A stretch of 64,000 nucleotides of DNA from Glaciihabitans sp. INWT7 (GTDB lineage Bacteria > Actinomycetota > Actinomycetes > Actinomycetales > Microbacteriaceae). Positions 21,328 to 61,315 of this stretch are shown in pieces (position 1 is the first letter of the stretch; every line of letters starts with the position of its first letter). The DNA lies in contig NZ_CP043653.1 of assembly GCF_014217685.1 (NCBI RefSeq), positions 372,001-436,000 of the forward strand, written 5' to 3'. A program made the position numbers and the translations under genes. The notes beneath the pieces are model-generated. The model searched no databases, was not told where the DNA came from, and saw nothing but the letters and a program-made list of their open reading frames with translations.

Positions 21328-21363
21328 GCTGCGGCGATGCGATGACCATCGCATCGCCGCAGC
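21328..21363 (+). terminator. Intercistronic hairpin 2 (17-bp perfect stem)
   Basis: The arm at 21328-21344 (gctgcggcgatgcgatg) is perfectly complementary to 21347-21363, with only 2 nt between, so the loop must open to about 6 nt. It is the second hairpin in 80 bp before the ATPase gene and probably an mRNA-stability or attenuation element. Confidence 0.6.
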
Positions 21364-25532: not shown

Positions 25533-26810
25533 ATGAGAATCCTCCTCGTCGGCGCCGGAGGCGTCGGCAACGCGATCGCGAAGATCGCCGCCCGACGTAC
25601 CTTCTTCGAGACGATGGTCGTGTGCGACTACGACCTCGCCCGCGCCGAGGCGACGATCGCCTGGATCGAGGCGAAGCACGGCCCACAGGGGGACCGTTTC
25701 GTCGCCGCGAAGATCGACGCCTCCGACCCGGATGATGTGGCGGCGGTGGCGAGGGCGCACACCATCAGTCACGTGATGAACGCGGTCGAGCCGAAGTTCG
25801 TGCCGACGATCTTCGCGGGCGCGCTCGCCGCCGGTGCGGACTACCTCGACATGGCGATGAGCCTGTCGGAGCCGCATCCCACCGAGCCGTATTCCGAGAC
25901 CGGCGTGAAGCTCGGCGACGACCAGTTCGCGCAGGCACCCGACTGGGAGACGGCCGGTCGCCTCGCCCTCGTGGGCATGGGAGTGGAGCCCGGGCTGAGC
26001 GACGTGTTCGCCCGCTATGCCGCCGACCACCTGTTCACCGAGATCGACGAACTCGGGGTGCGTGACGGCGCGAACCTCGTGGTTCGAGACGACCTCGGAA
26101 ACGAGATCTTCGCGCCGTCTTTCAGCATCTGGACCACGATCGAGGAGTGCCTGAACCCCCCGGTGATCTGGGAGAAGGATCGCGGGTGGTACGCCACCGA
26201 GCCTTTCAGCGACCCGGAGGTCTTCGACTTTCCCGGCGGCATCGGCCCGGTCGAGTGCGTGAACGTGGAGCACGAGGAGGTGCTGCTCATGCCGCGATGG
26301 GTCGACGCCAAGCGCGCGACCTTCAAGTACGGTCTCGGCAACGAATTCATCGGCATCCTCAAGACGCTGCATCAGCTCGGGCTGGACAAGACCGCGCCGG
26401 TGCGCGTGCGGTCAGCTAATGGCCCTGTGGAAGTGGCTCCGCGCGATGTCGTCGCGGCCGGACTGCCCGATCCGGCAAGTCTCGGGCCACGGATGAGCGG
26501 CAAGACCTGCGCCGGACTGTGGGTGACCGGACGCGGCCTCGATGGAGAGCCGAAGGCCGTCTACCTCTATCACGTGGCAGACAACGAGTGGACGATGGCC
26601 GAATACGAGGCTCAGTGCGTGGTCTGGCAGACCGCGCTGAACCCGGTGATCGCGCTGGAACTGCTCGCGTCCGGAACCTGGTCGGGCACCGGTGTTCTCG
26701 GCCCGGAGGCTTTCGACGCCGAGCCCTTCCTCGAGTTGATGGCTCGCCCGGAAGCAGACGACGGATACGGCCAGGAATGGGGCCTCGAGGACCGCACCGT
26801 GGCGGTGTGA
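25533..26810 (+). CDS. Saccharopine dehydrogenase-like oxidoreductase
   Basis: A 425-residue protein with an N-terminal Rossmann domain (MRILLVGAGGVGNAIAKIAA) and a C-terminal domain of the Sacchrp_dh family (GGIGPVECVNVEHEEVLLMPRWVDAKRATFKYGLG). It probably catalyses an NAD(P)-linked reaction on an amino acid or imine adduct. It overlaps the downstream enolase-superfamily gene by 4 nt, so the two act together, perhaps in conversion or racemisation of an N-substituted amino acid. The length is between bacterial Lys9-like and carboxynorspermidine-type enzymes; the substrate is unknown. Confidence 0.85.
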   Translation: MRILLVGAGGVGNAIAKIAARRTFFETMVVCDYDLARAEATIAWIEAKHGPQGDRFVAAKIDASDPDDVAAVARAHTISHVMNAVEPKFVPTIFAGALAAGADYLDMAMSLSEPHPTEPYSETGVKLGDDQFAQAPDWETAGRLALVGMGVEPGLSDVFARYAADHLFTEIDELGVRDGANLVVRDDLGNEIFAPSFSIWTTIEECLNPPVIWEKDRGWYATEPFSDPEVFDFPGGIGPVECVNVEHEEVLLMPRWVDAKRATFKYGLGNEFIGILKTLHQLGLDKTAPVRVRSANGPVEVAPRDVVAAGLPDPASLGPRMSGKTCAGLWVTGRGLDGEPKAVYLYHVADNEWTMAEYEAQCVVWQTALNPVIALELLASGTWSGTGVLGPEAFDAEPFLELMARPEADDGYGQEWGLEDRTVAV

Positions 26811-27919
26811 GGGTCCACGCGCTGGAACTGCACCGTCTGGCCATCCCCCTGGTGCGTCCCTTCGAGACGTCGTTCGGCCGCCAGACCGGCCGCCAGGTGC
26901 TCATGGTGCGCGTGAGGACCGATGTGGGAGACGGCTGGGGTGAGTGCGTCGCCGGCACGGATCCGGTGTACTCGAGCGAGTACGTGGACGGGTGCGAAGA
27001 CGTCATCCGTCACTATCTCGGTCCGGCATTGTTCGCGGCCGATGATGTCACGGCCGAGGGTGTCGCGGCACTCTTCGCCTTCGTGATCGGTCATCGCATG
27101 GCGAAGGCTGCTGTCGAGACGGCGGTGCTCGACGCCCAGTTGCGCGCCGTCGACACCAGTTTTGCCAGCTACTTCGGCGCCGAACGTGTCGAGGTGGACT
27201 GCGGCGTCTCGGTGGGCATCTCCCCGACCATCCCGGCGCTGCTCGACGAGGTGTCTCTGTATGTGTCGCAGGGATACCGTCGGATCAAGCTCAAGATCAA
27301 ACCGGGGTGGGACCTCGAACCGGTCGCCGCGGTGCGCGATCTGCTCGGCCCGGATGCCCTGCTCCAGGTCGACGCGAACACCGCGTACACCCTGCTCGAC
27401 CTCGATCGGCTCCGACGCCTCGACGACTACGACCTGCTGCTCATCGAGCAGCCGTTCGTGGAGGACGACATGCGCTCACACGTCTCTCTGGCCAGGACGA
27501 TTTCGACTCCGGTGTGCCTAGACGAGTCGATCGTGAACACCGAGCTCGCGCTCGATGCGATCGATCGTGGTGCCACCAGCATCATCAATATCAAGGCGGG
27601 CCGCATGGGCGGGTACCTCGAGGCGCTCGCCCTCCACGACGCGTGTGTCGAGCAGGGCGTTCCCGTCTGGTGTGGAGGGATGCTGGAGACCGGGGTGGGT
27701 CGGGCCGCGAATGTCGCCCTCGCCGCACTGCCCGGGTTCACGCTGCCGGGTGACACCTCGGCATCCGACCGCTACTTCGCTGAGGACCTCACCGAGCCTT
27801 TCGTGCTCCACGACGGTCGGCTGACCGTGCCGACCGGCCCGGGTAGCGGAGTGACGGTGCGGGAAGAGCTGCTGGGCGCCTGGTCGCAGCGTCCCGTAGA
27901 GGTGCTGCGCGCGGACTGA
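26807..27919 (+). CDS. Enolase-superfamily enzyme (MenC/N-succinylamino-acid racemase-like)
   Basis: A 370-residue muconate-lactonising-type enolase-superfamily protein. The catalytic features are in order: RIKLKIKPGWD (Lys of KxK), LLQVDANTAY (first metal Asp), LLIEQPF (Glu), CLDESIVN (Asp) and INIKAGRMGG (second catalytic Lys). This arrangement fits o-succinylbenzoate synthase or N-acylamino-acid racemase. No men genes are nearby, and the overlapping saccharopine-dehydrogenase-like partner favours an amino-acid role. GTG start inside the upstream stop (GTGA). Confidence 0.86.
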   Translation: MRVHALELHRLAIPLVRPFETSFGRQTGRQVLMVRVRTDVGDGWGECVAGTDPVYSSEYVDGCEDVIRHYLGPALFAADDVTAEGVAALFAFVIGHRMAKAAVETAVLDAQLRAVDTSFASYFGAERVEVDCGVSVGISPTIPALLDEVSLYVSQGYRRIKLKIKPGWDLEPVAAVRDLLGPDALLQVDANTAYTLLDLDRLRRLDDYDLLLIEQPFVEDDMRSHVSLARTISTPVCLDESIVNTELALDAIDRGATSIINIKAGRMGGYLEALALHDACVEQGVPVWCGGMLETGVGRAANVALAALPGFTLPGDTSASDRYFAEDLTEPFVLHDGRLTVPTGPGSGVTVREELLGAWSQRPVEVLRAD

Positions 27920-28761
27920 GGGAGCTACTCGCCCCCAGCCGTCAGGAGTTGCTCGCTGGGCATCGCGGGGGAGCGGTTTGCGACGGCTCCGCACGGTGGG
28001 CGTCGGTGGTAGCGGCCCAGGGGGTTTGCGGCAGTGGTGTGTGTGCGATCCCGTGCCCGTCCGTCACAGGTTGCTCGTTGGGCACTTCTGGGGAGCAGTT
28101 TGTGACGGGAGGGCGGCCCTGGCGGGTGACGGTGGGCGTGAAGGGGCGTCCCGTCCGTCGCAGTCTGCTCGTTCGGCGCCGTGGGGGAGCAGTTTGTGGC
28201 GGTTGGGCGGCTTTCGCGGGCGGGTGTCGGCGCGAGGGGGCGTCCCGTCCGTCGCGGTCTGCTCGTTCGGCGCCATGAGGAAGCCGTTTGAGTTGGTTGG
28301 GGGGGTGGCGCGGGACGCGGCGGCGCCGGAGTCTGTGCGGCAGGAGTGCGCGCGACGCCACGGTGATCCGTCACAGGTTGCTCGTTTGGCACTTCTGGGG
28401 AGCCGTTTGCGACGGGCGTCAGTCGGAGCGAGGGGCTGGCCGCGCGAGGGGGTCTCCATCCGTCGCAGTCTGCCCATTCGGCAACCTGGGGGAGCCGTTT
28501 GTGACGGGTGGCAGTCGGCGCAAGGGGCTGTCAGGGCGAGGGGCACCCCGTCCGTCGCAGTATGCCCGTTCGGCAACCTGGGGGAGCCGTTTTTGACGGG
28601 TGGGCGGCCCTGGCGGGTGTCTGTCGGGGCGAGGGGGTCTCCGTCCGTCGCACTCTGCTCGTTCGGCGCCATGAGGAAGCCGTTTGTGACGGGTGGGTCT
28701 GACTGTTTGCGCACGCCTCGCGCTTGTAGAGGCTGACGGGGCGGGTCAGTATCATGGCGAC
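27920..28761. repeat. Gene-free region carrying eight 48-bp palindromic repeats
   Basis: Eight copies of a 48-nt unit lie at 27939-27986, 28061-28108, 28155-28202, 28249-28296, 28368-28415, 28460-28507, 28552-28599 and 28645-28692. The best unit (copy 2) forms a 16-bp stem: CCGTCACA pairs with TGTGACGG and TGCTC with GAGCA, joined by three G-U pairs, around a 16-nt loop. Spacers are 44-46 nt (twice 71-74) and resemble each other, giving a period of mostly 92-94 bp. Mismatches read as G-U in the plus-strand RNA. Long open frames occur on both strands, but the units fall in different frames, so they are not protein repeats. Confidence 0.85.
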
Positions 28762-30669
28762 ATGACGGATGCTGCTGCCCTGGTCGAAGCTGCGAAGAAG
28801 GCTCTTGCGGATGCCGAGGCGGCACTCGCAGCAGAGAAGGCCGGCGCCGAGGTTACCTCTGAGCAGCCGACGGCCGCAGCACCGCAGCCGGCACGCGCGC
28901 CCGAGTCGTCGGCCGCGCCCGCGCCGTCCGCCACCGTCGCCCAGTCAGCCACCGTCGCCCAGTCAGCCACAGCCGCCCAGTCCGCCACCGCCGCCCAGTC
29001 CGCCACCGCCGCCCAGTCAGCCGCCGCCCCAGCCACCCCTCCCATCGCGCCCCCTTCACCCGACGGCCCCCTCGATGCGGCCGCCGTCGAAGTGATCCGT
29101 TCCGGTTATGCGTTCAGCGGCACTGTGCTCGAGATCGGCGCCCTCGTGAACGGCGACGCGCAGCCTCAGGTGCAAGTGCGCATCCCGATCGCCATGCTCA
29201 ACCGGCACGGCCTCGTCGCGGGGGCGACCGGCACCGGCAAGACCCGAACGCTGCAGGTGCTCGCCGAGCAGCTCGCTGCGGCGGGAGTTCCCGTATTCGC
29301 GGCGGACATCAAGGGCGACCTCTCCGGGGTGGCGACGGCGGGCTCGGAGAATCCCAAGCTCATCGATCGCACCAACGGCATCGGGCAGCACTGGACCGGG
29401 GCATCCTTTCCCACCGAGTATTTCGCCCTCGGAGGGGTGGGCAAGGGTGTGCCCGTTCGCGCAACGGTCTCTGGTTTCGGCCCGTTGCTGCTGTCGAAGG
29501 TGCTCGGTCTCAATGGAACCCAGGAGTCCTCTCTCGGGCTGGTGTTCCACTACGCGGCCCAGGCCGGGCTGCCACTCGTCGATCTCTCCGATCTTCGGGC
29601 CGTGCTCAGCTATCTCACGAGTGCCGACGGCAAGGGCGAGCTCACCGGCCTCGGCGGGCTATCGAGCGCGACAGTCGGAGTGATCCTGCGGGAGCTGATC
29701 ACCTTCGCCGACCAGGGGGCCGACGTGTTCTTCGGCGAGCCGGAGATCGACACCGCCGACTTCCTGCGCACCCACCCGGATGGCCGCGGGATCATCAGCC
29801 TGCTCGAGGTTCCGGGGGTGCAGGACAAGCCCGAGCTCTATTCCACCTTCCTGATGTGGCTGCTCGCCGACCTGTTCAACGACCTGCCCGAAGTCGGAGA
29901 TCTCGACAAGCCCAAGCTCGTGTTCTTCTTCGACGAGGCCCATCTGCTCTTCAAGAACGCATCGAAGGACTTCCTCGACTCGATCACCCAGACTGTGCGG
30001 CTCATCCGCTCGAAGGGTGTCGGCATCGTCTTCGTGACGCAGACGCCCAAGGACGTGCCCGGCGATGTGCTCGCCCAGCTCGGATCGCGCATCCAGCATC
30101 AGCTGCGGGCGTTCACTCCGGATGACGCGAAGGCTCTCAAGGCGACGGTGTCCACCTACCCGAACTCCGACTACGACCTCGGGAGCGTGCTCACCACCCT
30201 CGCCACCGGGGAGGCAATCGTCACCGTCATGGGTGAGAAAGGCGCACCGACACCGGTCGCGTGGACCCGGCTCCGGGCACCGCAGGGCGCGATGTCGCCG
30301 AGCGCTCCCGAGCTGATCGAGGCGACTATCGCGGCATCCGCCCTTCTGCCCAAGTACGGCACGGCGATCGACAACGAGTCGGCCAAAGAGATGCTCGGGC
30401 GCAAACTCGAGGCGGCGGCGGCGACGGCGGCGGCGGCGAACACCGCGGCCGAGCAGGCGGCCGCGGCGAAACAGCAGCAGGCCGATTACGAGCGGATGCT
30501 GCGCGAGGCCAAGAAGTCCCAGCCGCGCGCCTCCTCTTCGACGAGCCGCCGAGCGCCGGCCCCGCGGGCGGAGAAGAATCCGATCACCGACTTCCTCGGA
30601 TCATCCGCCGGCAAGTCGATAGTGAACTCGGTGGTGAAGGGCATCTTCGGCACACTGCGCCGTCGCTGA
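28762..30669 (+). CDS. HerA-like helicase/ATPase (DUF853 family)
   Basis: A 635-residue RecA/FtsK-like ATPase. An N-terminal coiled-coil-prone helix and an Ala/Pro/Gln linker with five 6-residue repeats (57-86) precede the ATPase core: Walker A GATGTGKT (154-161) and Walker B FFFDEAH (DEAH at 391-394), then VTQTPKDVPGDVLAQLGSRIQHQLRAFTPDD. The C-terminus is an Ala-rich coil and a basic tail. TATCAT ends 6 nt before the ATG at 28762, suggesting a leaderless start. HerA-type enzymes translocate DNA, but the DUF853 branch has no settled role. It lies directly beside the palindrome array. Confidence 0.88.
   Translation: MTDAAALVEAAKKALADAEAALAAEKAGAEVTSEQPTAAAPQPARAPESSAAPAPSATVAQSATVAQSATAAQSATAAQSATAAQSAAAPATPPIAPPSPDGPLDAAAVEVIRSGYAFSGTVLEIGALVNGDAQPQVQVRIPIAMLNRHGLVAGATGTGKTRTLQVLAEQLAAAGVPVFAADIKGDLSGVATAGSENPKLIDRTNGIGQHWTGASFPTEYFALGGVGKGVPVRATVSGFGPLLLSKVLGLNGTQESSLGLVFHYAAQAGLPLVDLSDLRAVLSYLTSADGKGELTGLGGLSSATVGVILRELITFADQGADVFFGEPEIDTADFLRTHPDGRGIISLLEVPGVQDKPELYSTFLMWLLADLFNDLPEVGDLDKPKLVFFFDEAHLLFKNASKDFLDSITQTVRLIRSKGVGIVFVTQTPKDVPGDVLAQLGSRIQHQLRAFTPDDAKALKATVSTYPNSDYDLGSVLTTLATGEAIVTVMGEKGAPTPVAWTRLRAPQGAMSPSAPELIEATIAASALLPKYGTAIDNESAKEMLGRKLEAAAATAAAANTAAEQAAAAKQQQADYERMLREAKKSQPRASSSTSRRAPAPRAEKNPITDFLGSSAGKSIVNSVVKGIFGTLRRR
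28930..29019 (+). repeat. Five tandem 18-bp repeats in the HerA-like gene
   Basis: Five units of about 18 bp (gccaccgtcgcccagtca and variants) encode ATVAQS/ATAAQS, residues 57-86. In-frame tandem repeats of this kind change copy number easily, so linker length may vary between strains. Confidence 0.85.
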
Positions 30670-61029: not shown

Positions 61030-61315
61030 GCCTCCACCGTACGCCTCTGCATAATTCCTGCAATCCGTGCGATCGGGCCGGGATGTCCCCGAGATATCGG
61101 GACCGGGATCCCGGCCGGCGAATTCTGCAGGAGTTGTGCGGGGGAGCCGGAGCAGGCTGCAGGAGTTGTGCGGGGGAGCCGGAGCAGTCCGCAGGAGTTG
61201 TGCGGGGGAGCCGGAGCAGTCAGCAGGCGGATGGGGTGGGCGGCGACCTCGGAGCGGCCAGCGGCCGATGGCGAACACCGGGGGCCGGGTCGGTGGCTGC
61301 CGGTAGTCTTGGCTG
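61030..61315. repeat. Intergenic region with three tandem 32-bp repeats
   Basis: Copies start at 61127, 61159 and 61191 (unit begins gcaggagttgtgcggggg) and end at about 61222, nearly identical. CCGGGATCCCGG (about 61103-61114) is a perfect palindrome just before. At the right end TAGTCT (61304-61309) is 6 nt before the dnaX GTG, fitting a leaderless dnaX promoter. No gene is seen. Confidence 0.75.

Follow-up and report, generated by a model that had tools for sequence, protein, structure and literature searches.

The palindrome array in the window

The window analysed here is a 64,000-nucleotide stretch of the genome of Glaciihabitans sp. INWT7 (G000; contig NZ_CP043653.1, positions 372,001 to 436,000), and other genomes and loci are referred to below by G and L numbers. 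Two plus-strand genes, an enolase-superfamily MR_MLE gene and a HerA-like one, are separated by an 842-bp gap, which is mostly filled by eight palindromes (Table 1). A first-pass annotation made from the sequence alone had reported eight 48-nt units, a tandem period of ~93 bp and a HerA-like (DUF853) gene next to them, and all of this was borne out: every unit was found where it had been placed, Tandem Repeats Finder (TRF) independently gives periods of 94 and 92, and the gene downstream of the array matches PF05872 with an E value of 1.8e-179. The start-to-start distances of the eight units are 122, 94, 94, 119, 92, 92, and 93, leaving spacers of 74, 46, 46, 71, 44, 44, and 45 nt. Whereas a CRISPR array needs near-identical repeats and unrelated spacers, the window units are only 65-79% alike to unit 1 and their spacers are related to each other, which rules out this identity. 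An Rfam search of positions 27000-29500 gave 0 matches up to E = 1, and no match to the array was found among plasmids.

Table 1. Coordinates of the window array, its neighbouring genes, and the five nuclease-like genes first found between palindromes.
Feature	Location	Strand	Remarks
Left neighbour, enolase-superfamily MR_MLE gene	26810..27919	+	3' end toward array; context, outside element
Palindrome unit 1	27939..27986	.	48 bp, dyad-symmetric
Tandem stretch, period 94	28056..28301	.	Units 2-4 and related spacers; TRF score 282
Palindrome unit 2	28061..28108	.	Best preserved; CCGTCA...TGACGG exact
Palindrome unit 3	28155..28202	.	
Palindrome unit 4	28249..28296	.	Right arm decayed
Palindrome unit 5	28368..28415	.	
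Tandem stretch, period 92	28397..28697	.	End of unit 5 to unit 8 and related spacers; TRF score 350
Palindrome unit 6	28460..28507	.	
Palindrome unit 7	28552..28599	.	
Palindrome unit 8	28645..28692	.	
Right neighbour, HerA-like (HerA_C) gene	28762..30669	+	Context, outside element
Nuclease gene, H. solani	L086		Palindromes at both ends
Nuclease gene, G253	L121		Protein 58% identical to H. solani L086 protein
Nuclease gene, G366	L147		Protein 55% identical to H. solani L086 protein
Nuclease gene, G000	L105 = G000:C1:3164970-3165881		Protein 42% identical to H. solani L086 protein
Nuclease gene, G007	L115 12728-13761		Frame broken; 37% to H. solani L086 over the piece used

Other repeats in the window include an 18-bp tandem repeat of 5.7 copies at 28926-29028 in the HerA-like gene, where it gives SATAAQ-type repeats in the N-terminal part of the protein, and a 32-bp tandem repeat of 3.2 copies with 94% matches (TRF) at 61124-61227. 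The strongest palindrome in the window by palindrome scan is a perfect one at 21328-21363 with 16-bp arms and a 4-nt loop (GCTGCGGCGATGCGAT/ATCGCATCGCCGCAGC). An ABC-transporter-like ORF starts within this palindrome, at 21342.

A dispersed palindrome family with a near-constant frame

A covariance model of the eight window units retrieves them together with weaker copies elsewhere on the same chromosome. In G000, the pattern CCGTCA-N36-TGACGG with at most one mismatch occurs at 90 sites and its reversed control at 7. When the window and 15 other G000 stretches were scanned on both strands with a sequence-only model of 34 copies, 129 matches resulted; scores on G000 are not independent, since the model was built from this genome's own copies. 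These matches were merged by hand into 64 copies, the weakest of which are doubtful, in 14 of the 16 G000 sources. Among the 14 sources, two contain one copy each and the remaining ones 3 to 8; 2 of the 64 copies lie apart from the array of their stretch, and each of the G000 arrays examined in detail has its own spacers and centres.

The palindromes range from 48 to ~64 bp in size and have a near-constant frame, conserved arms, and an unconserved centre, the majority-base fraction being 0.98-1.0 in the CCGTCA/TGACGG core versus 0.48-0.66 in the centre. Among CCGTCA/TGACGG pairs with gaps of 20-60, a gap of exactly 36 was found for 26 of 29 pairs in G000, 18 of 19 in G007, and 55 of 62 distinct pairs in Herbiconiux, although these figures are partly ascertained because the loci were partly picked by matches to that same pattern. 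The consensus half-sites begin with CCGTCA and diverge inward: CCGTCACAAACTGCTC in G000, CCGTCACTAACTGCTCGCTGG in G007, CCGTCACAAACCGCCC in H. solani, CCGTCACGATCCGCCC in G253, CCGTCACTTTTTGCGC in G366, CCGTCACTTTCCAC in G393, CCGTCACGAACGGCT in G216, and CCGTCAGAAGATGCTCTT in G189. Outward, the species-specific arms extend the palindrome to ~60-64 bp.

The exact pattern (0 mismatches) is abundant in a few genomes, with 26 occurrences in G000 and 18 in G007, which belong to the same genus, and 23 in H. solani (G297) and 29 in G366, both of genus g12 (Herbiconiux). The other 394 of the 398 family genomes contain 0-8, and the other eight listed members of the genus of G000 and G007 contain 0-2. 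Some of the lower counts, those in G393, G216, G189, and G253, represent real elements with other inner arms, and others resemble chance or coding matches. When the named genome collection, with the window's own records left out, was scanned for a stricter exact pattern, 11 stretches were hit, 10 of which are from H. solani.

Spacings between units fall into three groups in separate arrays (the window and L093-L105), namely 82-84, 92-94, and 101-106 bp. The groups are separated by roughly a helical turn, and the ranges of 85-91 and 95-100 bp are empty. A period scan for helical phasing of the array spacings had no clear peak at 10.5 (0.45 versus 0.55 near 10.9).

Genomic location

The location of the palindromes was surveyed at 48 places in four genomes using simple codon-usage gene calls, and four places were left untyped. 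Convergent genes flank 30 of the 44 copies or arrays that were typed, co-directional genes 12, and divergent genes 2. In G000, 11 of the 14 palindrome places are convergent; counting these 11, the same stretches have 126 adjacent gene pairs, of which 24 are convergent. Some single copies occupy almost the whole interval from one stop codon to the other (for example L095 3024-3071), and two of the six places of G253 fall inside predicted genes.

RNA fold and linkage to HerA

Because the arms of the window units had appeared to mismatch as G-U in the plus-strand RNA, the first-pass annotation had considered an RNA fold under selection, besides a site acted on by the HerA-like protein and an expanded REP family. 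The mismatch bias is real in the window array, where G-T and A-C occupy 21 and 6 of 128 cells, but it is gone in 30 other G000 copies (29 versus 28 of 480 cells) and in three relatives (13/10, 6/5, and 10/15). We read the local excess as shared ancestry within one array. In the 34 G000 copies, standard pairs make up 75.9% of the arm cells versus 76.8% after partner shuffling, and none of the covariation measures exceeded its shuffles.

Arm pairing tested genome by genome gave a divided answer. Among eight genomes tested, no excess of arm pairing was found in six (G000, G007, H. solani, G393, G253, and G189), and these are described by two independently conserved inverted half-sites. The inner arms of G366 are paired in 269 of 320 cells versus 237.2, with 0 of 2000 shuffles as high, and also after removal of four GCCC-type copies (238 of 280 versus 218.4, 0 of 5000 shuffles), the excess lying mainly in two columns that separate half-site subtypes. 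In G216, represented by 5 copies only, 45 of 50 inner-arm cells are paired versus 37.5 (2 of 2000 shuffles as high). Given the excess pairing in G366 and G216, the palindrome may form a hairpin in some genomes, and a dimeric protein and a hairpin would account equally well for the symmetric way in which the arms change from species to species.

A link to HerA is not supported: only 1 of the 14 G000 palindrome places adjoins HerA, a copy is present at 1 of the 7 HerA loci scanned within the genus (G007), and the HerA gene of G003 has no palindrome. The array beside HerA in G000 and the single copy there in G007 would be expected of an RNA element or a partition site acting with HerA, but the scattered distribution, together with the lack of covariation in G000 and of an Rfam match, makes this reading extremely improbable.

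A nuclease-like gene between palindromes

Five genomes have a single ORF set between two palindromes that are ~1.07-1.24 kb apart, and the encoded proteins are related to each other (Table 1). At the G000 gene, an array stands on the right, and the left palindrome has decayed to a 17.5-bit match; the palindrome finder saw nothing on either side at its threshold, and the 20-mer flank match is 17/20. The C-terminal part of these proteins resembles DUF559 and REase_MTES_1575, with all five under the Pfam cut-offs, and an NCBIfam search with the five gave nothing meaningful. Within a family of 30 members, REase_MTES_1575 matches 27 (best 1.6e-8) and DUF559 matches 22 (best 1.2e-6) at E<=0.05, the PADLOC AbiEi model matches 11 (best 1.2e-13), and residues E216, D249, H266, and D276 are invariant. 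The family has domain matches in common with DUF559, REase_MTES_1575, and AbiEi-domain proteins. Comparison with PDB profiles gave a match to 3hrl, an endonuclease-like protein (E 0.0021), and a match to 3r3p ('Mobile intron protein'), which we take to be I-Bth0305I, was not significant (E = 0.78). An AlphaFold model of the H. solani protein alone had a mean pLDDT of 32.5, which is too low for use. A published description places MTES_1575 itself among the Vsr REases, as a novel one fused to HEPN as well as other domains (PMC3710099).

In G007 the nuclease gene runs over two reading frames, yet 21 palindromes of G007 are well kept. Either the nuclease was lost recently, or a second enzyme serves the palindromes of this genome. 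G000 has a second nuclease gene, L203 (G000:C1:1160831-1161724), whose two ends share a different sequence (GAGTTGCA...) at 18/20, and no half-site of this type was found at up to 3 mismatches in the window or 15 other G000 stretches scanned.

Gene-palindrome pairing across the order

A profile of the protein was searched in 17 genomes (15 with a match) and in 149 genomes of the order (64 with a match), and flanks were read for 78 genes, namely the best E-value matches that became loci and 19 of 20 further ones. Many of the 78 genes have a long imperfect palindrome on one or both sides whose sequence is particular to that gene, and beside many of them the palindrome is nearly perfect. In a test which scores shared sequence, not palindromes, and which includes the five discovery cases, 51 of 77 genes have a 20-mer in common between their left and right flanks of 260 bp, at >=18/20. 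Mismatched flanks reached this level in 5 of 600 pairs from different genomes and 3 of 164 pairs from different genes of one genome. With the same threshold, 15 of the next 20 order-level genes were positive versus 6 of 380 mismatched pairs, so that 26 of 77 and 5 of 20 genes fail the test.

Palindromes themselves were compared with those of 204 control genes, drawn largely from palindrome-rich stretches. Palindromes on both sides sharing an 18-mer at >=14/18 were found for 37 of the 78 nuclease genes versus 5 of the 204 controls; one of these 5 is a nuclease gene itself and two (L173 and L175) are intervals between CCGTCA-family members. A strong palindrome is present on at least one side of 51 of 78 nuclease genes versus 77 of 204 controls, and on both sides of 26 versus 6. 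Among 37 genes, the likeness of the palindromes did not follow protein identity (Mantel rho 0.08, 253 of 2000 shuffles as high), and it tracks identity only in 7 pairs at >=50% identity. Among 75 typed loci of nuclease units, the gap is convergent at 32 and divergent at 9.

Members of the family were also read in plasmid and phage records. Three Arthrobacter plasmid genes, one of which is annotated as WP_054009319.1, hypothetical protein, and one gene on a phage-labelled contig (MT837503.1) all pass the 20-mer test (4/4), with clear palindromes on both sides in one and on one side in the rest. At least two weak relatives are on viral contigs among the matches listed (600 pattern stretches).

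At G004 L193, positions 1285-1430 hold a repeat of AGGGGACA...TGTCCCCT units with a 93-bp period, which is that of the window array. The repeat adjoins a nuclease gene that fails the flank test, and it is perhaps another array of the same kind.

A neutral origin, in which an old terminator hairpin was duplicated in tandem with no partner protein, would account for the location at 3' ends and for arrays with related spacers. We regard it as very unlikely, considering that a 48-bp frame with conserved arms and an unconserved centre is kept across species and that the flanks of the nuclease genes match each other in a gene-specific manner.

Orthologous loci

Six genomes have a nuclease gene in a Herbiconiux gap between dapD-like and citrate synthase genes, names which were assigned by reading the proteins. 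The sequence at one end of this nuclease gene matches that at the other, and it differs between species: the palindrome is of the CCGTCA type in H. solani, G253, G393, and G023 and of the GCCAA type in G366 and G143. Five nuclease proteins of this locus are 48-58% identical to each other, and neighbour-gene matches are mostly 78-97%, with 53-67% for one G143 flank query.

The gap between MR_MLE and HerA genes forms a series. It measures 21 bp and has no palindrome in G003, measures 313 bp and has one palindrome in G007, and contains eight palindromes in G000. In G189, which belongs to another genus, a nuclease gene lies between the HerA and MR_MLE orthologues, and its flanks share a 20-mer at 20/20, of a type other than that of the window. 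We read this gap as a recurrent site for such units, and the series of G003, G007, G000, and G189 links the array of the window with the nuclease family through position in addition to sequence. Filled and empty sites looked too diverged for an insertion boundary, such as the target-site duplication of a MITE, to be read.

At G366 L142, no nuclease gene is present where G253, G012, and G004 have one, and positions 1561-1608 hold a 48-bp palindrome of another sequence (GCGTCACTCGTC...GACGAGTGACGC), possibly a gene-less site.

Discussion

The pairing of a nuclease-like gene with a palindrome is well supported, and everything that we propose beyond it, including cleavage and mobility by the nuclease, we infer from sequence comparisons. 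With a probability of roughly 0.6, the copies clustered in the window array are gene-less versions of a palindromic DNA site belonging to the nuclease gene family, the palindrome being the dyad site of the nuclease and cut at its centre. In this scenario, the protein would be a homodimeric EDxHD/Vsr-type nuclease in which each monomer reads one ~24-30-bp arm, so that the ~60-bp palindrome would be the dyad recognition site, with cleavage in the unconserved centre. A gene between two palindromes would represent the occupied form and a solitary palindrome the empty form. Cutting and break repair at a palindrome would move or copy the gene, or a short DNA between two half-sites, into other palindromes, where repair would scramble the centre and recognition would preserve the arms and their spacing. 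Local duplication of a palindrome with its spacer would then give tandem arrays such as that of the window. We propose that palindromes survive chiefly at 3' ends since an insertion in such a place causes little damage. Several observations weigh against the nuclease-site reading: the likeness to 3r3p is not significant and the five discovery proteins are under the Pfam cut-offs; 26 of 77 and 5 of 20 genes fail the flank test, and strong palindromes are frequent beside control genes as well; the flanks of the G000 gene are weak; palindrome likeness does not follow protein identity over 37 genes; the G007 gene is broken although its genome has well-kept palindromes; the arms covary in G366 and G216, which a plain double-strand site does not require; and complete sites flank the gene, unlike in classical homing.

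EDxHD homing endonucleases have a Vsr-like catalytic domain with an E, D, H, D signature. According to a review, their representative I-Bth0305I has several domains and forms a dimer on a target almost 60 bp long (PMC3943268), and an extended DNA-binding region and a long target would be common to both systems. Taken together with the 48 to ~64 bp of the palindromes, their near-constant frame and unconserved centre, and the four invariant residues, this is most simply explained by a dimeric nuclease that would cut its palindrome in the middle. In contrast, the genes described here have complete sites on both sides, together with many dispersed gene-less sites. No gene was found inserted in and interrupting its own target, the palindromes being complete on both sides where both were scored, and no intron or intein was seen.

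REPs and BIMEs with a RAYT, as described in PMC3733652, have in common with the present family the dispersed palindromes, the arrays, the 3'-end or convergent location, and an enzyme gene bordered by palindromes. As in a REPtron, the copies here are extragenic and mostly at 3' ends or between convergent genes (2 of 48 places are inside predicted genes), and the enzyme gene is bordered, albeit by a different enzyme family and with 26 of 77 genes failing the flank test. The enzyme of a REPtron is a Y1 transposase, whereas the paired protein here has a Vsr-type nuclease domain. REPs are given as 20-40 bp with a GTAG or CGTC tag (PMC3733652); the present palindromes measure 48 to ~64 bp, their arms being 16-30 bp long, and their 48-bp frame pairs to the arm ends, leaving no unpaired tag. 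The CGTC REPs, which apparently have no dedicated transposase according to Di Nocera et al. 2013 (PMC3733652), have stems of 8-9 bp, loops of mostly 4-5, and CGTC unpaired at one end. Both families contain CGTC, but in the present palindromes CCGTCA has its counterpart TGACGG in the opposite arm, at a distance of 36 bp. An expanded REP family is, of the three ideas of the first-pass annotation, the closest in behaviour, but Y1_Tnp (PF01797) was found in 0 of 12 genomes, with 5 of 14 control genomes positive, whereas a REPtron calls for a Y1/HUH tyrosine transposase (RAYT). The layout is REPtron-like with another enzyme, and its complete flanking sites are unlike classical homing.

The REPtron-like layout, in which a gene is bordered by palindromes that are amplified elsewhere, also raises the question of whether the nuclease acts on hairpins at its ends in single-stranded DNA, like RAYT or IS200/IS605 TnpA, with the solitary palindromes as miniature mobile copies. 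The excess pairing of inner arms in G366 and G216 and the near-perfect palindromes beside many genes would agree with such a transposition. Considering that the domain is Vsr-like and not HUH/Y1, that PF01797 is missing from the 12 genomes searched, that six of eight genomes (G000 included) have no covariation, and that the G366 signal comes mainly from two subtype columns, we hold this alternative to be doubtful.

Alternatively, the nuclease may not move the palindromes at all, and an AbiEi-like N-terminal domain would bind them as operators or as transcription barriers between convergent genes, leading to autoregulation and insulation. The AbiEi matches in 11 of 30 members, the convergent location of 30 of 44 typed copies or arrays with only 2 divergent, and the copies that nearly fill a stop-to-stop gap are what one would expect. 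It is unlikely nonetheless, since autoregulation does not need a palindrome at both ends of the gene, the palindrome is absent from the G003 HerA locus, and the counts of the exact pattern are 26 and 18 in two members of the genus versus 0-2 in the other eight listed.

Returning to the nuclease-site reading, we consider the chances about even that these elements constitute a widespread and undescribed class of selfish DNA in Actinobacteria. Such an element would consist of a Vsr/EDxHD-type nuclease gene bounded by two ~60-bp dyad targets and would spread by cutting at the centre and pasting between half-sites; gene and palindrome would be specific to a lineage, and gene-less sites and tandem arrays would accumulate in some lineages. 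In the accessible text of open-licence PMC papers, none was found linking DUF559, MTES_1575, or AbiEi-type proteins to flanking palindromes, and the pairing may be undescribed within the scope of that literature.

In summary, the nuclease-site reading offers a specific and testable role for the poorly characterised DUF559/MTES_1575-like proteins, and a partner enzyme for a family of intergenic palindromes that lacks a RAYT. The palindrome beside each gene would predict the long target of the encoded protein, so that many natural pairs of enzyme and site may be readable from genomes. The origin of REP-like repeats without a tyrosine transposase would thereby become a question that can be tested at the bench.
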